Shown: one piece after another, positions 1,228 to 23,863 of the stretch
Layout of the letters: every line of letters starts with the position of its first letter
How positions within the stretch are numbered: the first letter of the stretch is position 1
Virus record (IMG/VR): IMGVR_UViG_3300030419_006581
Coordinates: 608 to 24,752 of that record
Direction: 5' to 3' (one strand)
Source: a virus
DNA: 24,145 nt
Notes under the pieces: generated by a model
Database searches by the model: none
What the model saw: the letters and a program-made list of their open reading frames with translations, nothing else
Told to the model about the DNA's origin: nothing
Translations under genes and position numbers: made by a program

Positions 1228-4200
1228 TTGTTAGCTCCGCTGTTATGTCTTTGAATAAGTTAAACTCTGAGTAAGCCTCTTTAGCTGTTATTCTATGTGT
1301 AAAACCAATCATCCTATAAATGCCACTTAAAAAATCAGTTATTGGATTATCATCTTCAAAAGTGTTTCCTCCTGGTTTAATGCGTCTAACAGGTTTGAGC
1401 ATAACTAAGCACTGCTGTAGCAAATCTGAATGTTTTGATAAGTGAAACATAGGTAATGTCTTAATGGTGCCTTCGTAGGTCTGAGACATAATATTCATGA
1501 ACAATTGTGCGAAAGCCACTATGGAGGATCCTTTTCCTTTTCTTATTTTAGTAGAAATGCCAGTAGTTTCTAATAATATAAGATCAGCTAACAAATCAGC
1601 CATCTCATCTATATTAACTTTTCTGCTAATTCCAAAGGTAGGGGTAAGTCTACTCCCTAGTCCTGCTGATTTACTTGCCATTAAGTCCAAAACCTCTACC
1701 ATCTTCTCTTGAACCTCTTCCACTGTCATTCCTGGCTCTAGTATTGGGTTGTCTGCGCTATAGTATCTTTTTGCAACAGTAGAATAAACCTCTCTTATTG
1801 ATCCAAATAGTTGAGAGTATATAAATTTATTAGTATCAAAAGAATACCCTAAAACATTAGCATTTGCTGTGTTTGCTAAAAACATAGGAAAAGCAGTTTC
1901 ATAAATGTACTTTCTTAACTTTTTCCTGTCCTCCTCCACTACAGCCTCTTTAGCAGGATCTAAAGAAAACTCATCAGGAAGAAGCATAGGCAGCTTATCA
2001 GGACTATCAAGTATGTCTAGGTAATAGCCTAGATTGTACCCTGGGGTGTGATGAAGCGCCTTATAAGTTCTTTCAAAGTAATTGTTAGGATTGTTGCTAA
2101 GAACATAATCAATAGAAACTTTTAACCTATTCCAACAAGGATCTTGAATTGAACCCTTCGTATTTAAAATACCCACTGGAGCGCCAGCAAACTCAATTAA
2201 CTGATCCGTGCCATCGAACAACCATGGACAGTTATCTTTTAAGGGAAAAAGACCGCCATATAAAAATAGTCTAATTAGTTCTCTATCCCCAAAGATAAAG
2301 TATGGATCATCGTCAACAGGTTTGTTTTTTATACTAAAAGAATTCATATACTGGGTGGTGTAACCAGCGAATGTTCCTCCACCGAAAGTTTCTATAAGCA
2401 ATTCTTTAGTTTTTATATCGCCTACAAAATAGTCTTCGTATGTTATGGTCTGATTTGCTGAGATAGCATTCAAAGATCTAACCATTTCCTTAAGAGGATC
2501 TTGCCAACTAAATTCCTCAGCATCCTCTACCTCACCATATTTTGGACCTAACTGAATACTTAATATTTTTTCTGCCGTGATAGCCCCTGGAACATTTCCT
2601 GAATAGGGATCCTTTGATGCTGCATATGTTGACGCTTTTAAACCTTTAGGAGGTGTTCCTTCTTTAAATGGATCTAACATAGTAACATCGACCCACCAAT
2701 CAGGGTCACGAACCGTGGAAGCACCTAACAAACTAAGGTTTAACCCAAGAGGATCCTTAGTTTTTGTGCCGTATGTTCTTTGTTGTGTGTTAAGTAAAAC
2801 AGGAAGTCCCTCATCGCTAGATGGTTCGGCGGTTGCTCCTTTTAATCCTATAGTTTTGAATATCTTAAAGAAAACAGTATCAATAAATTTATGAATAGTT
2901 TGCTTTCTTGCCTTATCACCTAAATTTTGATAAAGGTTACTGAATAGCTGTCCTGCTGTAGGGCTACTGATGGCTGGACCTCCATCAGGTGGGGTCACAG
3001 CCCTAGAAACCCACTGACCCCTAGTAAAGTTTGCATCATTTAGTTTACCAGGAACTAAAGTATCAAGAAGTGTTACAATGTCAGAATCAAAAAGAGATTT
3101 TGCTACAGTGGAGACTAACGATAGTCTTTCACTTCCTGGGGCTCCTGTTAAGACGCTGTTGTAATTACTCCACGCCGCCGCGCCTGTTTTGGCTAGGGCG
3201 GGGCTCTGCAACGCTGCCATTGGATCATCAGGATCATATAAAGCACCAGCAGCTAACCCCAATTCTGGTAGGGACTCAACTACACATCTTTCTATCACCC
3301 CAGCTAACATAAGATCTAAATACGGAAGAAAAATTATATGATTCTTTATACCTACCTTAAACAAATAGTTTGATAATAATTTAACTATTACATCATGGAA
3401 AGTGTATGATTTTGTCGCAAAATCATTTTTATCTTTATGCGTAGAATTTTTAGATTGGTTATTGAATACTAGGACTGGTATCTGATCTGTTGAGAATAAG
3501 TTACTTTTTGTTCCTATTTTATTTACATCTACAGAGAACTGATTACTAAGGTAGTCCACCACTAATTCATATTCTACAGTTTCTTGTTTACCATTATTTT
3601 TATGTTTAATGTCACCCAAATAAGTTTCAAATGGCCCAGCCCAATCCTTTAGATCATTTCCTATCCCATACATAACATAGACCTTGGGCATTGTTCTCTT
3701 ACCTATTACTTTTTGTATTTCTTCTATGATGGGTGCTTGCTCGTCCTGTTTTTCTTTAAGTCGGTTTTTTGCTTCGCTAAGTCCTTCCTGAGCGTGGCTT
3801 TTTAATTTCGCCCACCGTGGTTCAGACATCTTTTGCCAAACTCCAGCAATTTTTTGAAGACCTCCTGACTTCAAAACATCTTGCAAATTTTGAGCCCTCT
3901 CCTCCACATACTCCTCTGCCGTTAGGATTTCACTCGATAGTCTGTTAAATTCTGAAAAATACTCTCGCATTTGTTTTTCTTCAGAATCTTTTCTTTCCGT
4001 AATATTTCTTAATGATTTTTGTGTAAACTCAAAAAATAAATCGTTGAGAAACTTGAGCCCTGGATCAAAGGTGTTAATGTTTATAGTTGAACCAGAGTTA
4101 GATTTTTTATTTGTGAAATCATGCCGAAACTCTATAAAATTTGAATCTCCAGCGTTGAATACGGTGCTGAACCTAGAATTTCTTATTTCATCAAATAAAA

Positions 4201-5483: not shown

Positions 5484-7076
5484 TTATCTTACCGTTAATG
5501 GATCAGGTATTAAACCTTGATCAACTAATGTTTGAAGCAACTCTGCTTGGGTTGCAAACCCTTGTGTAATTGCTTTGGTGGAGACTGCTTCTGATAAGGC
5601 AACTCTGAATATATTGTCCTGTAAGGCCTTATTGGCTAGTCTTTCAAATCTAGATGTTCCAAAGGGATCCCTAGTTTTCTTTCTTTCTATTTCTACCAAT
5701 GCAGCAGTGTTTTCTGCTGTCTTTCTTGCTGATTCCTCTGCGTTTTCATTAAAAGATTTAATCAACTTTAGCGCACCGAAAATTGACGCTACAGCAGCAG
5801 CTATAATGATAATTTTAGCAAAAACAGCACCAATACCAATCTTAGCCAAACCCGCTACCATGCCTTTACCTATAGCTTTTGGGAGTATAAATTTAGCAAG
5901 AAGGCCTCCGCCTACAAACGAGGCGGCTAGGTCACCTTTTGCTTCTGGTGATACTTCTGGTAAAATTTTGCCTAGGTGAGTGATAAACTTACCCACTTGT
6001 ATTGTTGCGTCTGCTATACCTCTAGCAAAAGGCTCAAAAGCTGTTTTTAATGTAATACCTAAATCAGAAAATAGTTTATCTGTCTCCGATAACTTATTCG
6101 CTGTATTACTTAAAGCATCATCTAACTGAATTGCCAGGACACCTAAATCACCAATAATATTTTTAATGGCTCTTTGTGCAAAAGGACCTGCATTTTTAAA
6201 GTTTTCGGCAAATGCTCTAGCCCTCGCAGCAGTTTGCGATATGATTCCTCTTAAACCTTCAGCACTATCTATTTGTCCTGAGGTAATTCTTCCTAGGTTG
6301 TTTAAACCGCCTAAGATGCCTAACTGTCCGACATCAGCAGTAACAAACTGCTCTGTAAATCTTCCTATATCTTTAGATAAAATAGGGAACTGCGCTGTTA
6401 GCCCTTTAATTGCTGTTTGAGTGCCTCCTAAAGTACCAGCTAAAGACAAAACACCGAGTGATGTGTTTAGCTCGGACATACCCTCAAGTAGTTTCTCTGT
6501 TGAAACTTGATATCTTATAGATAAATTAGCTAAGTTTTTATTAAACTTATCAATCTGACTTTGCTGTAGTCTGCCTCGAATAAGTAGAGTTTTATTAGCT
6601 TCTATTAATCCTTGAATATTCTGCCCTGTTATCTTCATTCGGCCAGCGAGACTGGCTGTGGCTGCGCCCACATTTGTAAAGCCCTCTCTCTGGAATGCGA
6701 ATAAAGTTGTAAGTTTAGACTCAAGATCTCCAGGCATTGCATTGAGTTGCTTAGAGTTCTCAGCGAATACCTGTGGTAGAGTTTTATTTAGCGATAAGAA
6801 TATTTTGTTTTGTTGATTTGCAAGGTCTATGTTTTTTTCTATAGATCTAGCTAATCTATCAATGGGAATAGCAAAGGTTTTTCCTAAGGCTCTCCTGTCC
6901 CCCTTTGTGAATGCTTCTGCGGCTATATCTTCTAAAACATCTGCGATAGCAAACCTAACGCTAACGAATTCCTCCCGTGTTCTTTCAAACGGAACTTTCT
7001 TCCCACCAGGTCCTTGGGGGTTTCCATCACCTTGTTGTTGATAGGTGTAATTGTGTATCAAACTATCCCAACGCAT
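5484..7076 (-). CDS. probable tail tape measure protein (gp29-like position)
   Basis: The protein has 530 residues. It is largely helical in appearance and rich in Ala, Leu, Lys and Asn from about 35 to 380. A Gly/Ala-rich hydrophobic stretch follows at 386-440, including GLLAKFILP, GMVAGLAKIGIGAVFAKIII and AAAVASIFGAL. Long helical proteins with internal hydrophobic segments are the hallmark of tape measures, which set tail length and enter the cell with DNA. T4 gp29 has 590 residues, so a tail slightly shorter than T4's would be expected. The next gene resembles a tube-cap protein, as in T4 (29-48-54). The start overlaps the preceding stop by one base (TAATG), with GAGGT about 9 nt upstream. 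The assignment rests on composition and gene order, not on a catalytic motif. Confidence 0.6.
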   Translation of the reverse strand: MRWDSLIHNYTYQQQGDGNPQGPGGKKVPFERTREEFVSVRFAIADVLEDIAAEAFTKGDRRALGKTFAIPIDRLARSIEKNIDLANQQNKIFLSLNKTLPQVFAENSKQLNAMPGDLESKLTTLFAFQREGFTNVGAATASLAGRMKITGQNIQGLIEANKTLLIRGRLQQSQIDKFNKNLANLSIRYQVSTEKLLEGMSELNTSLGVLSLAGTLGGTQTAIKGLTAQFPILSKDIGRFTEQFVTADVGQLGILGGLNNLGRITSGQIDSAEGLRGIISQTAARARAFAENFKNAGPFAQRAIKNIIGDLGVLAIQLDDALSNTANKLSETDKLFSDLGITLKTAFEPFARGIADATIQVGKFITHLGKILPEVSPEAKGDLAASFVGGGLLAKFILPKAIGKGMVAGLAKIGIGAVFAKIIIIAAAVASIFGALKLIKSFNENAEESARKTAENTAALVEIERKKTRDPFGTSRFERLANKALQDNIFRVALSEAVSTKAITQGFATQAELLQTLVDQGLIPDPLTVR

Positions 7077-8789: not shown

Positions 8790-9786
8790 GTTTAGTCCTC
8801 AGTTTATTAAAGACTATGTGATCGAAAAGTTGAAGTGCGATTATCGTATATCTTCAACCGAGAGAGAATTGATCATCCCCTCTGTATTTATAGAGCATGA
8901 CTACAAAAGGCACATGAGCATCAACCTTGAAACAGGGTTGTGGCAGTGCTTTAAAACAGGATCCACAGGAAACTTCATAAAGCTGTACTCGATTCTAGAG
9001 GGCATACCGTACAAAGCCGCACAATCAAAACTACTGTTTCAAGGCGTTGAGACAGGAATGTGGGACTTATGGGAGGATCAAAAGCCTGATCCAGTCACGC
9101 ATGTCGTTCAATCTAAACTTATTACAGATGGGTTCAAGCCTGTAAATATCGACAGCTATGATTCAGATGATGATCTTGTTGTGAAAGCTTGGACCTTTCT
9201 TATGGATCGCAGTTTGTTTAACATCACCACAACTGAGCGGGATCCTTACTATGTGGCTACAAAAGGCAAGTACAGAGGTAGGTTGATAATTCCGTTCAAA
9301 GACTACGACGGTGATATCTTTTTTCTACAAGCACGAAGCCTCTCACCAAACCTACAACCCAAGTACCTTAATCCTAGGGTAGAAGATGGCGTAAAATCCA
9401 GCAATATTCTTTACCCCTTCGACTTTGACGCTGATTTCCTCTGTATATGCGAAGGGCCGTTAGATGCCATCTCGCTCAAATTAAACGGCTTAAACGCGAC
9501 ATGCACGGTCGGTAGCTCCATCTCACATGTTCAGATGCAAGCCCTAAAGGAATTTGAGGGTAAAATTATCTTAGCTTACGACAATGATGAAGCTGGTGCT
9601 AGAGGGATAGAGAAGTTTGAGTCACTCCGCAAACAACATCTAATGCCTACTTTCAGCGTGTGTACACCTCCTGCAAACTACAAGGATTGGAACGAGGCCC
9701 ATGCAAAGGGCGAAGATCTCTACGGCTGGATGACCGAGAAGACTTACGAGTACAATTTTGAGAATAGAAGCCTAAATCTTATTTAA
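8788..9786 (+). CDS. TOPRIM DNA primase, gp61-like
   Basis: Starting at 8788, the protein has 332 residues, close to T4 gp61 (342). The TOPRIM domain is clear: E222 in CICEGPLDAISL, and D265 and D267 in ILAYDNDEAGA, which would bind the catalytic metals. The N-terminal part (30-65) has the layout of a primase zinc domain (IIPSVFIEHD, LETGLWQCFKTGSTGNFIKL), but only one Cys remains of the usual four. The role is RNA primer synthesis with the replicative helicase, inferred from the family. I prefer the ATG at 8788 to an upstream ATG at 8734: the longer form would add 18 residues read antisense to the nuclease N terminus. The 8788 start has no Shine-Dalgarno site, and TATAAA lies 4 nt before it. 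It overlaps the convergent 332-aa virion-like gene by 8 nt. Confidence 0.85.
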   Translation: MFSPQFIKDYVIEKLKCDYRISSTERELIIPSVFIEHDYKRHMSINLETGLWQCFKTGSTGNFIKLYSILEGIPYKAAQSKLLFQGVETGMWDLWEDQKPDPVTHVVQSKLITDGFKPVNIDSYDSDDDLVVKAWTFLMDRSLFNITTTERDPYYVATKGKYRGRLIIPFKDYDGDIFFLQARSLSPNLQPKYLNPRVEDGVKSSNILYPFDFDADFLCICEGPLDAISLKLNGLNATCTVGSSISHVQMQALKEFEGKIILAYDNDEAGARGIEKFESLRKQHLMPTFSVCTPPANYKDWNEAHAKGEDLYGWMTEKTYEYNFENRSLNLI

Positions 9787-10777
9787 CTACGAAATACATC
9801 AAAGGGCTTACTATTTTCTCTGCTAGAACAGTGTAGGTAACTTGCAAGGAGTAAGTGCCTCTTCTAGTGCCTAACTCATCAGAGTCTAAAGTTACTCCGT
9901 TTCCGCTTACCAAATCGGTATCTGTATCGAACGAGTAGATGATGGTGTTGTCTGATGTAATATCAACATCTGTTGAACTTACCGCTGTCACTCTCGCAGG
10001 TAAACTAGAGTCCTCGTTCAGTTTTTTAATCACCACTGTAGCACTAGTAACAACAGAGTCTTTAAATATATTCTTAACTGACTCATCAATCTTATCATTC
10101 TCTACAGTGACCTCAGTGCCGACCTTCAAGTCTGTCTTTGATCCCAATACGACCTGTCTATTAAATAGTTTACTCTTTGTTCTTAAAAGCAGCGGCTCAG
10201 TTATAGAGATGAAGGAGTCATCGAATAACTCAAAGTAGTTAATAAAGGTTTTAAAATCACTACCTTCAACTAACTTTACAGTCCATATGTCTATGTACTC
10301 TCTTGCAGCAGTGGCAGTGTTAGCCATAACAGTTCCGTTCTGGTCTACACCTGATAGTGTTCCTGCCAACACTCCATCAAGAACACACGCAAACTCACCG
10401 TTTGCTAACTTATAAACGCCACTCAAAGCAGAACATGACTGCACAGTCCCTGCGGGGTTAGGGACTATTGTTGTCGCTCCTGCGGCACCACTGTAGTTAG
10501 TAGCGTTAAATGAGGTGTCACTGCCTAATATACCTGTTCCCGAGGGACCGAAGACCATCGCTGCTGAAGAGGTCGATCCACTTGCGACAGTGCCTGACGA
10601 GTTCAGTACAGTGCTAGGGGATAGGTTTTGAGACCTTTGAAATACATGAACCGAACTAATTTGATATGGGTCGGTATACTCTCCATCATTGATGAAGAAT
10701 GTTCTAATCATCACCCTGGTGTTGGCTCCAGGACGATTATTACGGTCAACTACCTCAGTTGTGTTTATTAATGGCAT
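9779..10777 (-). CDS. unassigned beta-rich protein, possible virion component
   Basis: The protein has 332 residues. It is rich in Ser, Thr, Gly and Val with short alternating strands, and carries a Ser/Gly low-complexity part at about 60-110 (SSGTVASGSTSSAAMV, GSDTSFNATNYSGAAGATT). The C terminus ends in GTYSLQVTYTVLAEKIVSPL. This is typical of phage surface or structural proteins, but I recognise no family. Its start lies 23 nt inside the -1 frame extension of the gp26-like gene, with GGAG about 11 nt upstream, so it is probably co-translated with that gene. It may be a tail- or baseplate-associated protein. It is GC-richer in places than the flanking virion genes. Confidence 0.55.
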   Translation of the reverse strand: MPLINTTEVVDRNNRPGANTRVMIRTFFINDGEYTDPYQISSVHVFQRSQNLSPSTVLNSSGTVASGSTSSAAMVFGPSGTGILGSDTSFNATNYSGAAGATTIVPNPAGTVQSCSALSGVYKLANGEFACVLDGVLAGTLSGVDQNGTVMANTATAAREYIDIWTVKLVEGSDFKTFINYFELFDDSFISITEPLLLRTKSKLFNRQVVLGSKTDLKVGTEVTVENDKIDESVKNIFKDSVVTSATVVIKKLNEDSSLPARVTAVSSTDVDITSDNTIIYSFDTDTDLVSGNGVTLDSDELGTRRGTYSLQVTYTVLAEKIVSPLMYFVVK

Positions 10778-11677
10778 TATTCTGTCGCTCCAAGTCTTGC
10801 GCTAAAATATCTAAAAACATTGTTCTTTCCGTTCTAGTTAATGTTTTTACATCAGAATAGGTAAAACCTACCTGTTTTACAAGTATATAGGCTTCTTGGA
10901 TGAGGTCTTTTAAATCTAAAGACCTCTTTAATTCACTGAGAAAAAATTTTCGTCAATTGGCAGTGAAATTACATTAGTATGGTTGCAAGAATCACAAGAA
11001 AACTTCACTGTCGATTGCACACCATATTGTTCTAAACTAAAGGCTTTGACGATTGTATGTATATCAATAATTGGTAGTTGCTTAACAACTTTTGATATCA
11101 CTGTTTTGCTATCATTTCCATCAATTGATTTAATGAAACGCCATAAGTTCTGATCAATTTCATTGTTTAGAAACTGCTCCTCTGCTCCTATGGGCGTAGA
11201 GATAACTGCTGGCTTTTTAATGCCACTTAAATCCACGGGGATCTCGAATACATTCAGGTCTTCTGGAACATGTTTTACTGGCAATTCATCTAATGCAACA
11301 GTTAGATTATTTACAAAACCACAGTTCTGACAGCCTACACCAACCGAGTAATCTTTGCCGTACGATAATTCTCGTATCTTTAATAAGAGAAATAATTTAT
11401 CTATGAGAATAAGATTACTACCCTCAACTCCATCAACACACTTGTCAATCAAGTAGTTAGTAGGGTTGTAATCTCTAGCGTTAGATGCTGTTGCCATGTG
11501 CTTTTCGTCCTCGAAAAGAATAGGCCTAACTCTCACCAAAGTTTCCTTGCCAAAATAAGGAATTCCTCTGGAAGGTAATAATACATCAACCTCTGTTTCC
11601 ACGGGAAGATTTTCTAGGATTGATGCAACTTGTTCGTCTTCTGAATCTACGGGTGTTTGTGGAATTTCATTACTCAT
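10755..11677 (-). CDS. predicted -1 frameshift fusion of the gp26-like protein
   Basis: If the ribosome slips back one base at the heptamer at 10946-10940, translation leaves the 0 frame after Phe246 and continues for 61 residues to a TGA at 10755, giving about 307 residues. The extension starts LSELKRSLDLKDLIQEAY and continues VGFTYSDVKTLTRTERT and FLDILAQDLERQ. It looks helical and well behaved, not like random sequence. The -1 frame opens with a TGA only four codons upstream of the slip point and has no ATG, GTG or TTG until near its end, so it cannot easily be a separate gene. This is the arrangement of the tail assembly chaperones G/GT of lambda and E/E' of P2. The frameshift is inferred from sequence only. 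Confidence 0.6.
10902..10926 (-). other. hairpin downstream of the slippery site, possible frameshift stimulator
   Basis: On the minus strand GAGGTCTTT (10926-10918) and AAAGACCTC (10910-10902) form a perfect 9-bp stem around a 7-nt loop. The stem starts 13 nt after the heptamer. That is a little longer than the usual 5-9 nt spacing, but it lies within the -1 coding extension. There is no T-run after it, so it does not look like a terminator. Confidence 0.5.
10928..11677 (-). CDS. gp26-like baseplate hub assembly protein, short product
   Basis: From the ATG at 11677 the protein has 249 residues. It resembles the T4 gp26-type baseplate protein family: DVLLPSRGIPYFGKE at 31-45, VRVRPILFEDEKHM at 48-61, then IDKLFLLLKIRELSYGKDY at 92-110. 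It also has two zinc-ribbon-like pairs, C116-x2-C119 and C228-x2-C231, and ends LPIDENFFSVN. In T4, gp26 takes part in building the central hub. A longer GTG start at 11719 was rejected: it adds 14 residues and would run into uvsW, while the ATG has AGAGGT about 8 nt upstream. A slippery heptamer lies four codons before the stop, so this is probably the shorter of two products. Confidence 0.7.
   Translation of the reverse strand: MSNEIPQTPVDSEDEQVASILENLPVETEVDVLLPSRGIPYFGKETLVRVRPILFEDEKHMATASNARDYNPTNYLIDKCVDGVEGSNLILIDKLFLLLKIRELSYGKDYSVGVGCQNCGFVNNLTVALDELPVKHVPEDLNVFEIPVDLSGIKKPAVISTPIGAEEQFLNNEIDQNLWRFIKSIDGNDSKTVISKVVKQLPIIDIHTIVKAFSLEQYGVQSTVKFSCDSCNHTNVISLPIDENFFSVN
10940..10946 (-). 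other. slippery heptamer T_TTT_TTC
   Basis: Read on the minus strand in the frame of the gp26-like gene, the codons are AAT TTT TTC TCA GTG AAT TAA. The heptamer T TTT TTC fits the X XXY YYZ rule for -1 slippage. The 0-frame stop follows three codons later at 10930-10928. Confidence 0.65.
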
Positions 11678-19204: not shown

Positions 19205-20730
19205 TCAATGTCCTCTACTACTTGCTTACCTTTTGATATTAAAGGTATTTTTGTGCTTTTAGGGTAAAGTTTTGTCTCTTTAAAAGCATTTTCTTTAGTA
19301 AACTCAATAAAGGAGTTCTCTCTAGTGGTCTTCATGATGTGATTAGCTAGTGTTAAACTCATAATTAGATCATCATGCTTACCATTATCAGCAGTTATTT
19401 TCCCTGAGTTTGTTATTACAAAGGTATTTAGCTCATTTAAAGTGCGTTCAGAATTAATTTTTAGAACATTAGTCCTAATACTTTCCTCTAACTCAGATAA
19501 AATGGTCTCTCTATTCTTGACAGTTACCTGAAAGCCAGCTAAACCTCTCTGATCATGCCATAAGTTTTCATACTCAAACTTATTATAGAGCAAATCAATG
19601 ACATGATTTCCCACGGTGTTGCGTTCTACGATGATATTTGCAACATTATAATAATTACCCTCTTTATTTAAAATGGAAGCAAACTCATCTATGGGTGTCT
19701 TGTTGCTATAAAACTCTGCCACAACCTCTCCATTGTAAAGATTTACGATTTGCGCTGCTGAATAATCTCTACCTCGCCCCAAAGCTGTGTCTACACCGAT
19801 GATATAATCGTAGAAAGGCTCAGGATCCTTCCAAACACGCATTCGATTGTTGTATTTTGTGTAATAAGAGGTATTTACGCCTTCTGATAGGTGTGAGAGT
19901 AAAGATCCATCAATAAAGGTATCCCCTGTGCCTAAGAACTCACACTCATACTCTTGAAGCCATTGCTTTCTAGGCATGTTTGATTTTGTGACTGCTACCC
20001 AGTCATCAACATTCATTGGAGGAACCCGTTTCTCCATCTCCTCGTACAAATCCTCAAAGCCTTTTACTCTGTAATACTCTGGGTGCTCCTTCCATGTGAT
20101 GTCTATTGCATTAAATGAGTTTGCTTTTTCCACCGCTTTGTAGTAAGTTTCATAAAACCAGTTACCCACACCATTTACAGTTGATAGAATAAACGCCCTA
20201 CCCCCTGTAGAGATAATTGGATACACTGCTGCCCAAATAGTGTCGATAGATTCTACGAACGCTGCCTCATCAATAATCAAGAAAGACCCAGCCAACGACC
20301 GTCCTGATTGTTTTCCTGAGGGTCGGGATTTAATAACAGAGCGATTTTTTAGCTTTAGCGTGTGTTTATTGTCTTCTGTTATCCCTGGTTGAAGGAAGGC
20401 AGGTAACTCTTCGTACATGATTTTAATTCTATCCAACACTTCAGTCGCTTCAGTGTCCCCTTTTGATAGAATAACGATAGACTGATGTCTTTCAAAGACA
20501 GCTAACCATAATGCATACGCTGCTGCTATAGTGGTGCAACCAGCCTGTCTAAATTTCCGCAAGATATTGAATCTATTATCTTGAAGTTCTGATACTATTC
20601 TTTCTTGAAACGGGTATAATTTAAAGGGGACTAACCCACGAACAGGGTGTGTAACACGAACATATTCAGACATAAAATGCGTAGGATCATCCTTACAGCG
20701 TTTAAACTCTTTTAAAACATCAGCTTCCAT
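19189..20730 (-). CDS. terL: terminase large subunit, gp17-like
   Basis: The protein has 513 residues with both terminase domains. In the ATPase domain the Walker A region is ILRKFRQAGCTT at 56-67, Walker B is SFLIIDEAAF at 149-158 (D154, E155), and motif III is ILSTVNG at 181-187. The nuclease domain has D314 in IIGVDTALGRGRDYS, E369 in IIVERNTVGN, and D453/D454 in GKHDDLIMSL. The protein cuts concatemeric DNA and pumps it through the portal. It is shorter than T4 gp17 (610). The usual Walker A lysine is not in its standard place; RKFRQ-type variants exist in other phages. AAGGA about 10 nt before the ATG lies inside the divergent glycosyltransferase gene. No small terminase subunit is seen. 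Confidence 0.95.
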   Translation of the reverse strand: MEADVLKEFKRCKDDPTHFMSEYVRVTHPVRGLVPFKLYPFQERIVSELQDNRFNILRKFRQAGCTTIAAAYALWLAVFERHQSIVILSKGDTEATEVLDRIKIMYEELPAFLQPGITEDNKHTLKLKNRSVIKSRPSGKQSGRSLAGSFLIIDEAAFVESIDTIWAAVYPIISTGGRAFILSTVNGVGNWFYETYYKAVEKANSFNAIDITWKEHPEYYRVKGFEDLYEEMEKRVPPMNVDDWVAVTKSNMPRKQWLQEYECEFLGTGDTFIDGSLLSHLSEGVNTSYYTKYNNRMRVWKDPEPFYDYIIGVDTALGRGRDYSAAQIVNLYNGEVVAEFYSNKTPIDEFASILNKEGNYYNVANIIVERNTVGNHVIDLLYNKFEYENLWHDQRGLAGFQVTVKNRETILSELEESIRTNVLKINSERTLNELNTFVITNSGKITADNGKHDDLIMSLTLANHIMKTTRENSFIEFTKENAFKETKLYPKSTKIPLISKGKQVVEDIEWLMK

Positions 20731-21418
20731 GAAAATTTATTCCTTAACTTGTACTAGAGGTGGAGAGATGTCAGAAACGACATCTAATCTATTAGAGTAT
20801 CTTAAAAGATGTGACATTGAATCAAAAATGCTTGTAGACAAGACATCAATCTTTGATGCCTATGAAAACGGCATAGACGAACTTCAAGCCGATCCAGACG
20901 ATATTATCATTCTTTGTCACGATGATATAAAGATTCTTACAGATCCATTAGTATTTACCTCGCTGCTAAAAGAAAAACTAAGAAAACCTAAAGTTGGTTT
21001 TGTTGGAGTGGCAGGAACAAAAATACTAAGTAGAGATGCCGTCTGGTGGGACAAAGACTTGTGGGAAAGAGGATTTCACAGTGGGCATGTCTTTCATGGA
21101 TCAGACATAACAAAAGCTGACGATACACATTTTGGAAAACTTGGTAAGGTAACTGTTCTTGATGGTTTGTTTCTAGCAGCAACTAAAAAAACGCTAAGAT
21201 CCATTCAAATAACAAAACCTAAATCTTTTGAAGGTGAGTGGGACTTTTACGATATATTTTACACCACACAAACATTTCTAAAACAAAAAGAGAATTACAC
21301 TCTTCCTATACAGATAATGCACGAATCAAAAGGTGAGTTGGCAGGAAGAGATTCTTGGCACAAAAACAGAGAAGCTTATATTCGCTTATTTAACGATCAC
21401 TTACCGTTAAGGGCGTGA
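20729..21418 (+). CDS. glycosyltransferase family 2-like protein
   Basis: The protein has 229 residues and matches the short GT-A family often found in phages (Pfam Glyco_tranf_2_5 type). It shows IILCHDDIKIL with the metal-binding D65-D66, VGFVGVAGTKIL at 89-100, WW at 106-107, VLDGLFLAATKK at 143-154 and DFYDIFYT at 172-179. The family transfers sugars to proteins, DNA bases or cell-surface glycans; the target here cannot be told. It is a single plus-strand gene divergent from terminase with overlapping start codons and no Shine-Dalgarno site. An internal Met14 has GGAG upstream, but starting there would lose the first strand (KIYSLT). Its 3' end overlaps the convergent 75-aa gene by 12 nt. 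Confidence 0.8.
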   Translation: MKIYSLTCTRGGEMSETTSNLLEYLKRCDIESKMLVDKTSIFDAYENGIDELQADPDDIIILCHDDIKILTDPLVFTSLLKEKLRKPKVGFVGVAGTKILSRDAVWWDKDLWERGFHSGHVFHGSDITKADDTHFGKLGKVTVLDGLFLAATKKTLRSIQITKPKSFEGEWDFYDIFYTTQTFLKQKENYTLPIQIMHESKGELAGRDSWHKNREAYIRLFNDHLPLRA

Positions 21419-21634
21419 TTTTTTAGGGTTAGATTTCATTAATCTACCTTTTGTGATTAGCTTCATTGTATCTGTCTTCAATTGTTGAACTTCAGGAGAT
21501 AGAGGCCCCACTTTCTTTTTGCCACCTAATGCTCCTAACTCTCTTAGACGCTTAATGTTTTTCGAGACTTGATCCTCGGCTGATTCTTTGTCAGCCTCAC
21601 AAATAACGCTGTATACTTTATCTTGCCACTTCAT
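21407..21634 (-). CDS. small basic protein with M-x-W-Q-x-K N terminus
   Basis: The protein has 75 residues and begins MKWQDKVYSVICEADK. This N terminus is shared with the proteins at 23473 and 23863. After residue 13 the protein has about 16 Lys/Arg against about 7 acidic residues. The ICE-A junction at 11-14 matches the (L/I)-x-E rule for T4 prohead protease cleavage, so a capsid-targeted internal head protein is possible; this is inference. The gene lies just after a strong terminator and has no Shine-Dalgarno site, but TATACT is 6 nt before the ATG. Its reading runs toward the glycosyltransferase stop, with 12 nt of overlap. Confidence 0.6.
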   Translation of the reverse strand: MKWQDKVYSVICEADKESAEDQVSKNIKRLRELGALGGKKKVGPLSPEVQQLKTDTMKLITKGRLMKSNPKKSRP

Positions 21635-22700: not shown

Positions 22701-23126
22701 TTACATCAGTTCAACCAGTTCTGCCTCCTTTGCCCTTGGGATGACGATGGTTAAGAGACCATCAACAAAATCTGTTTTAGCTTTCTTTAGATCAAAAGCC
22801 TCGTCAATATTCAACGAAAAGTCCACATCTTTCTTGCTGATTCCGTGATGAACAAATTTAACGCCCTGCTCAACCTCACCTTTTGCAGTGATTCGTAGAA
22901 CATTTTTACTGGCTTTTACGCTAATATTTTCCTTTGCATATCCAGCAAGTGCAAACCGTAATGACAGCTTATTGCAATCATCATCTACCCAACAATCAGA
23001 GTGGGGGTAATTTGGAAGAGAAGCTAACTGCTTTTTTGGCTCAACGACCATGCGGTGCCAGTCTCGGAGGACAAGATCGAGATCATTCCAAATATAATCA
23101 AAATTAGTCCAATAGAAGTTTCCCAT
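22701..23126 (-). CDS. hsp20: small heat shock protein (Hsp20/IbpA-like)
   Basis: From the ATG at 23126 the protein has 141 residues. It contains a full alpha-crystallin domain: KLSLRFALAGYAKENISVKA, then VLRITAKGE, HHGISKKDVDFSLNID, and the closing VDGLLTIVIPR strand, with the A-G-x-x-K-E-N and G-L-L signatures. The family holds unfolding proteins in solution, and phage copies are common in T4-like marine phages, where they are thought to help virion assembly or protect the host machinery. I chose 23126 because AAGGAG sits 7 nt upstream; the ATG at 23150 would translate through that site. The gene stands alone, with a terminator on each side. Confidence 0.9.
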   Translation of the reverse strand: MGNFYWTNFDYIWNDLDLVLRDWHRMVVEPKKQLASLPNYPHSDCWVDDDCNKLSLRFALAGYAKENISVKASKNVLRITAKGEVEQGVKFVHHGISKKDVDFSLNIDEAFDLKKAKTDFVDGLLTIVIPRAKEAELVELM

Positions 23127-23192
23127 TGTTTTTCTCCTTTCTTTCGACAAGGGTTAAAGAGTCCCTAACGGCAACTCTCTTTCTATTATAGA
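23127..23192 (-). promoter_or_regulatory. hsp20 promoter and leader, possible RNA thermometer
   Basis: On the minus strand TATAAT lies at 23190-23185, within TCTATAATAG. About 45-50 nt of leader follow, with a strong Shine-Dalgarno site. CTCTTT (23161-23156) can pair with AAAGGAG (23140-23134), leaving one bulged G, which would cover the ribosome site. A competing hairpin AGAGT/ACTCT is also possible. The -35 box is not obvious. Confidence 0.4.
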
Positions 23193-23287: not shown

Positions 23288-23473
23288 CTATTTTGAGCCT
23301 AATCTACCTAGTTCTTTTGTTCCACCGCCTTGTAACGCCTTACGAGCCATGGCTATGGCTCTTAGTCTAGGGGGTAGTTTAGCAAAAGGATCACCTTTTT
23401 TTACGACAGGCTTTTTACCCTTTGTGCTTCCAGGGTCAATTACTGATTCTAGAATCTTTTCTTGCCATTTCAT
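23288..23473 (-). CDS. small basic protein with M-x-W-Q-x-K N terminus
   Basis: The protein has 61 residues and begins MKWQEKILESVIDPGS, sharing its N terminus with the genes at 21634 and 23863. The remainder is strongly basic, with about 13 Lys/Arg against 2 acidic residues (TKGKKPVVKKGD, LPPRLRAIAMARKALQ). AAGGA is about 11 nt upstream of the ATG, inside the 60-aa gene, which it overlaps by 38 nt in another frame. It is the last gene before the strong terminator. A DNA-binding or internal head protein is possible; the protease-like junction (VID) is a weaker fit than in the two paralogues. Confidence 0.55.
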   Translation of the reverse strand: MKWQEKILESVIDPGSTKGKKPVVKKGDPFAKLPPRLRAIAMARKALQGGGTKELGRLGSK

Positions 23474-23620: not shown

Positions 23621-23863
23621 TCAGGAATATCTCTTGAACTTAGGTTTCTTTGGAGGTTTAGCACTAATCACTTGTCTAGGCACACCTGACTTGGGATCGA
23701 CACCCTCAGGGTCCTTCATCGCTCTATTCTTAGCTGCTGCCGCTCTAGCTTGCTGTGCTCTGGGGTCGTGGAACCCACTGACCTTCATGCCTGATTTGGT
23801 TTTTTGCCTGGAGAACTGATGTTGCTCAGTTAAACTCTCATATAATTTGTTTTGCCAATTCAT
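23621..23863 (-). CDS. small basic protein with M-x-W-Q-x-K N terminus
   Basis: The protein has 80 residues and begins MNWQNKLYESLTEQHQ, the clearest form of the shared N-terminal peptide. SLTE followed by Q fits an L-x-E cleavage site as used by T4 prohead protease. The rest is Ala- and Lys/Arg-rich (RAQQARAAAAKNRAMKDPE, AKPPKKPKFKRYS), with about 17 basic against 4 acidic residues. An A/G-rich leader (AAAGAAAAAG) precedes the ATG. It lies 18 nt after the partial upstream gene and 2 nt before the 60-aa gene, in one operon. An internal head or DNA-binding protein is inferred. Confidence 0.58.
   Translation of the reverse strand: MNWQNKLYESLTEQHQFSRQKTKSGMKVSGFHDPRAQQARAAAAKNRAMKDPEGVDPKSGVPRQVISAKPPKKPKFKRYS

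Follow-up and report, generated by a model that had tools for sequence, protein, structure and literature searches.

In phage T4, gp26 and gp51 are listed as hub assembly chaperones, and gp51 is essential, is not found in the particle and has an unknown function (PMC3004832). Cyanophage gp51 was described as lacking the first ~200 residues, and phage Aeh1 as lacking gp51 (Sullivan et al. 2010, PMC3037559). Tail assembly chaperones of T4-like phages were the subject of Vladimirov, Gautam and Davidson (Virology 2022, 566:9), as cited in PMC10885494 and PMC12846349. According to these citing papers, some T4-like phages do not frameshift but carry a short gene and, separately, a fused one (PMC10885494), and poly-T frameshift signals occur in TAC-N genes of T4-like phages (PMC12846349). 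The link between T4 hub assembly proteins and the chaperone class that was drawn in a preliminary description of the locus studied here holds, but as represented in the same two papers it had already been made in 2022. The gene described below is a new, divergent member of an already known chaperone concept.

The DNA analysed, referred to as the window, is a stretch of 24,145 nt (positions 608 to 24,752) that makes up most of a linear virus record of 24,752 bases [IMG/VR record IMGVR_UViG_3300030419_006581]. A gp26-like gene on the minus strand (11677-10928) predicts a 249 aa protein, the short product (TAC-N), that matches Pfam PF12322 (T4_baseplate; 1.1e-16, 61.6 bits with a curated cut-off of 24.5) and the baseplate hub family phrog_150 (2.5e-20). 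Its AF2 model (pLDDT 85) matched the SP-15 'baseplate hub subunit' at a TM of 0.71. The closest matches in published phage records are remote, with three tblastn matches at 26-27%. The name T4-like, used previously for this phage, applies only loosely, as the phage encodes a T4-type portal and a UvsW-like helicase, yet is far from T4. Elsewhere in the window, a phage-encoded small heat-shock protein Hsp20 (phrog_432, 5e-16) is predicted at 22701-23150 on the minus strand, and a glycosyltransferase-like protein (PF13712, 2.7e-11) at 20729-21418 on the plus strand, adjoining the terminase gene. Three small ORFs on the minus strand (21407-21634, 23288-23473 and 23621-23863) predict products with similar N-termini (MKWQDKVY, MKWQEKIL and MNWQNKLYES), possibly a repeated N-terminal tag or a gene family.

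The gp26-like gene ends in GAA AAT TTT TTC TCA GTG AAT TAA. The slippery heptamer T_TTT_TTC (10946-10940, minus strand) is in frame, specifying Phe-Phe in the 0 frame, and the TAA stop codon of the short product lies four codons farther on, at 10930-10928. The last stop before the heptamer in the -1 frame is a TGA at 10955-10953, where the overlap opens. From there the frame runs uninterrupted through the heptamer and 61 codons beyond it, terminating in a stop whose last base is 10755 (extension at 10940-10755). The first ATG, GTG or TTG in this ORF lies 107 nt beyond the gp26 stop. The ORF fills the 150-base gap between that stop and the start, at 10777, of the next gene on the same strand (9779-10777), which predicts a 332 aa protein with no family match. 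It also overlaps this gene by 23 nt, a detail absent from the preliminary description. A perfect 9-bp hairpin, a candidate frameshift stimulator, is located at 10926-10902, 13 nt downstream of the heptamer. The heptamer, the open -1 frame, the lack of a usable start and the hairpin were thus all recovered as first reported. Of the 24 window ORFs treated as genes, the gp26-like gene alone has both an in-frame A/T-type heptamer near its stop and a long -1 ORF that is not part of the next annotated gene, and the -1 frame was open over that 170 nt in only 0.8% of Markov resamples.

The sequence makes it very likely that this gene belongs to the T4 gp26/gp51 family of tail assembly chaperones and would produce two proteins via programmed -1 ribosomal frameshifting. 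We infer that the majority of ribosomes would end at the 0-frame stop to release the 249 aa gp26-like short form, and that a minority would slip by -1 on U_UUU_UUC, probably helped by the downstream hairpin, bypass the stop and add 61 residues. The predicted fusion of about 246+61 = 307 aa would be the equivalent of T4 gp51.

An alignment search yielded a cyanophage-type set of 80 gp26 genes. In 80/80, TTTTTTC starts 13 nt ahead of where the gp26 stop codon ends. Counts over homologues such as this one are not independent and overstate the number of events, but the gp26 proteins with a -1 site share only about 20-80% identity. The codon before the two Phe codons ends in T in all 80 (AGT in 39, TCT in 24, GCT in 10, AAT in 6 and GAT in 1), compared with 63% of Ser codons elsewhere in these genes, and the third base is therefore fixed though Ser, Ala, Asn and Asp all occupy this position. 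Without exception the first Phe codon is TTT and the second is TTC, whereas TTC makes up 24% elsewhere in the same genes; this second bias partly reflects the -1 frame being read, rather than slippage as such, because the C starts the next -1 codon. The site is also present in Sinorhizobium phage phiM7, Desulfovibrio phage 7757, Aeromonas phage Aeh1 and Rhizobium phage RHph_I34, and in pelagiphage HTVC008M the heptamer is T_TTT_TTT. In Aeh1 [GenBank accession number NC_005260], an unannotated -1 gp26 extension follows TTTTTTC at 3214-3384. Two Ackermannviridae (L017 and L018) have gp26 genes ending in ATT TTC ATT TAA with a gp51-like extension in the -1 frame, and include neither a standard heptamer nor a start within 28 nt of the stop.

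The -1 ORF after cyanophage gp26 appears in databases as a gene of its own, 'gp51'. It could be a separate small gene reached by re-initiation or from an unusual start, the poly-T being incidental and coding for a required Phe-Phe, and an ATG does overlap or closely follow the gp26 stop in Cygsa01, Vibrio K362 and LR756511 and stands at +2 in many cyanophages. However, there is no start near the junction in the window, in contigs L003, L112 and L066, or in Desulfovibrio phage 7757, Aeh1 and HTVC008M. An ATG in the -1 frame near the junction is missing in 13/80 cyanophage-type loci, and a Shine-Dalgarno-like motif precedes the first such ATG in 0/80. The T fixed ahead of Phe-Phe across AGT, TCT, GCT, AAT and GAT is likewise at odds with a separate gene. 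As for an incidental poly-T, T4 gene 26, which needs no frameshift, has no heptamer and reads GAG TTC TTT GAG at the equivalent place. A separate gene is accordingly considered unlikely.

Relatives retain the arrangement predicted for a -1 frameshift. Contig L002 is identical to the window, and L003 and L004 are 81% identical. As these contigs come from other metagenome samples and all keep the same frames, a sequencing error at the junction is unlikely. Both the heptamer and the startless -1 ORF are conserved in L003/L004 and in L112, where gp26 is 36% identical to that of the window and the junction is GG T_TTT_TTT CAGTGAGCTAA. For the extension, comparison of the window with L003 gave a dN/dS of 0.11 in the -1 frame, and 6 of the 8 differences beyond the gp26 stop are synonymous in this frame, compared with at most one in either of the other frames. 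The window (about 10590-11000) and L003 are 93-95% identical over ~400 nt, a block that begins just upstream of the heptamer and extends into the downstream gene, but mostly 66-86% identical elsewhere. The block may be due to recombination or to unusual constraint. L112 is therefore the stronger comparison for selection. Its extension shares 26/55 aa with that of the window (pN 0.31, pS 0.77), and the differences fall 22/11/34 at the three codon positions, a third-position bias. Conservation in relatives, purifying selection and the absence of an error joining the frames were the comparative tests proposed in the preliminary description, and the programmed -1 frameshift passed every one. As T4 gp51 has the same domains in one frame, the extension could also be a decayed remnant of a formerly in-frame C-terminus, left as a pseudogene tail by a frameshift mutation. 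Such a remnant is scarcely credible, given that the extension is under purifying selection in the -1 frame, that the heptamer is invariant where the two frames join and that this junction recurs in several independent metagenome contigs and in cultured phages.

The window hairpin has 9 perfect pairs and a loop of 7 (-12.3 kcal/mol), with z scores of -3.2 against dinucleotide shuffles and -2.6 against synonymous recoding. Its 13 nt spacer is longer than the usual 5-9 nt between a heptamer and a stimulatory structure. For the cyanophage set, the 45 nt after the heptamer have a mean z of -3.87 against synonymous recodings of the -1 frame, compared with 0.22 and -0.62 for control regions. The cyanophage hairpin has a covariation score of 0.175 against 0.102 when shuffled (0/500), and T-A, G-C and A-T interchange at one pair of the main helix. 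The hairpin is absent from L112 (z about 0) and HTVC008M, which leaves its role uncertain. A hairpin common to all family members was considered and rejected, the folding and covariation tests indicating a lineage-specific structure.

Long T runs can induce RNA polymerase slippage, and polymerase stutter on the poly-T would lead to the same two proteins. HTVC008M and L112 have 8 consecutive T. However, the window has only 6 T in a precisely phased heptamer that ends in C, and in the cyanophage set the heptamer is followed by a selected hairpin, so that transcriptional slippage is very unlikely and ribosomal frameshifting is preferred.

PF12322 includes both T4 gp26 (208 aa) and gp51 (249 aa), and the phrog_150 profile reaches the C-terminal end of gp51. 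The phrog_634 family ('baseplate hub assembly catalyst') matches the gp51 C-terminus and a small 'gp51' ORF of HTVC008M (1.2e-13), which also aligns with the C-terminal part of phrog_150. In profile comparisons, the cyanophage extensions matched the T4 gp51 C-terminus with 90% probability, the window extension with 57% and the +1-type extensions described below with 85%. None of 150 column-shuffle controls reached the observed score in each of the cyanophage-T4, cyanophage-window, +1-window and +1-cyanophage comparisons. The window extension had no significant match to Pfam or PHROG profiles and was not significantly related to T4 gp51 directly (probability 0.14%), and hence the two are linked only through the intermediate cyanophage profile. 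The suggestion that the extension is the counterpart of gp51 thus stands for the C-terminal domain but not for the whole of gp51, which the profile links indicate is composed of a gp26-like domain and the extension. Because these links join the extensions to the gp51 C-terminus, T4 gp51 would be the counterpart of the frameshift fusion and T4 gp26 that of the unshifted product. T4 gene 51 is a separate gene with its own Shine-Dalgarno sequence AAAAGGAG, and T4 genes 26 and 51 would gain a concrete origin in a single frameshifted gene that was resolved into two. The 'truncated' cyanophage gp51 is explained in the same way, as its N-terminus would be gp26, and the 'missing' gp51 of Aeh1 by the extension in the -1 frame of gp26. 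Both are predicted to be gp26 frameshift products, and cyanophages are one of the most abundant marine phage groups. This family of gp26 is found in 785 phage records, and every annotated record inspected either listed the second ORF as a gene of its own or left it out.

In Bacillus phage SP-15, Listeria phage LIS04 and Flavobacterium phage immuto, the gp26-like gene is flanked by tail tube/completion genes on one side and tape measure genes on the other, as is classic for a tail assembly chaperone, though the downstream gene of SP-15 carries no annotation beyond 'putative tail protein'. Profiles recognised no tape measure gene in the window, and none directly follows the gp26-like gene there. 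A 530 aa product encoded at 5484-7076 is a tape measure candidate by its long hydrophobic stretch only. A profile search of solved structures found no relative and no significant match to a tail assembly chaperone, and a fold search against the PDB gave nothing significant, chains of the HK97 chaperone 2OB9 being listed with E values of 3.8-5.1 (prob 0.13-0.21). On the model of lambda G/GT, we infer a chaperone function in which the short form would coat the tape measure protein while this is unfolded, and the few long copies would recruit tail tube or hub components during assembly.

A further group of distant relatives (L113-L190) have gp26-like products that end in FFWP followed within a few residues by the stop, with a homologous extension in the +1 (= -2) frame. 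Junctions were counted over 59 unique loci, and L191, L192 and L195 were also counted among the distant +1-frame genes. TTT TTT TGG CCT is present at the junction in 50/59, and in 56/59 a +1 ORF continues for 30 codons or more beyond the stop. The first possible start in 21 of these 56 is at least 60 nt past the stop, or absent. The junction is TTT TGG in RM378 and Mel-JY01 and CTT TGG in immuto, the latter resembling the E. coli RF2 site CUU UGA. L113 has TTC TTT CGT, and +1 re-pairing of tRNA-Phe on TTC fits this better than a -2 slip, though one sequence is not decisive. In SP-15, LIS04 and GXN1 (L193, L194 and L005), which have Gram-positive hosts, NCC_CGA is found near the end of the gp26-like gene with a +1 ORF beyond, and is possibly a third type of slip site. 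One +1-type extension matched PF20546 (DUF6760) below the cut-off (E 0.014). The group with a +1 (or -2) shift at TTT_TTT_TGG may be new.

Phages lambda (G/GT) and P2 (E/E′) make a short and a long form from one gene by a -1 slip near its 3′-end, as is predicted for the window gene and its TAC-N/TAC-NC counterparts in T4-like phages. In SP-15, LIS04 and immuto, relatives of the window gene also stand directly upstream of the tape measure gene, but no solved tail assembly chaperone is a significant profile match to the window protein. Cyanophages and pelagiphages (P-SSM2, HTVC008M and S-CAM22) share with the window T_TTT_TTC/T at the end of gp26 and a homologous -1 ORF domain, and most cyanophages also have a hairpin after the heptamer. 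However, their gp26 is about 20% identical to that of the window, which lacks the ATG seen at +2 in many cyanophages. Flavobacterium phage immuto, Microcystis phage Mel-JY01, Rhodothermus phage RM378 and L113-L190 have homologous gp26 and extension domains, but the extension is in the +1 frame with the consensus TTT_TTT_TGG_CCT, whereas that of the window is in the -1 frame. T4 gp26 and gp51 belong to the same family (PF12322, phrog_150) as the window gene, gp51 including both the gp26-like domain and the C-terminal extension, but T4 encodes the two forms separately, with gene 26 lacking a slippery site, whereas the window has one gene and a candidate frameshift. It is reasonably likely that one chaperone family has at least four ways of producing the same pair of proteins: a -1 frameshift (the window, cyanophages, pelagiphages and Aeh1), a +1 (or -2) frameshift at YTT_TGG (a large, mostly uncultured group), an overlapping stop-start (Cygsa01, Vibrio K362 and LR756511) and a separate gene for each form (T4). 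In that case, the direction of frameshifting would have switched in evolution while the Phe-Phe domain junction stayed, and this switch between -1 and +1 within one family would constitute a natural experiment on the evolution of recoding signals.
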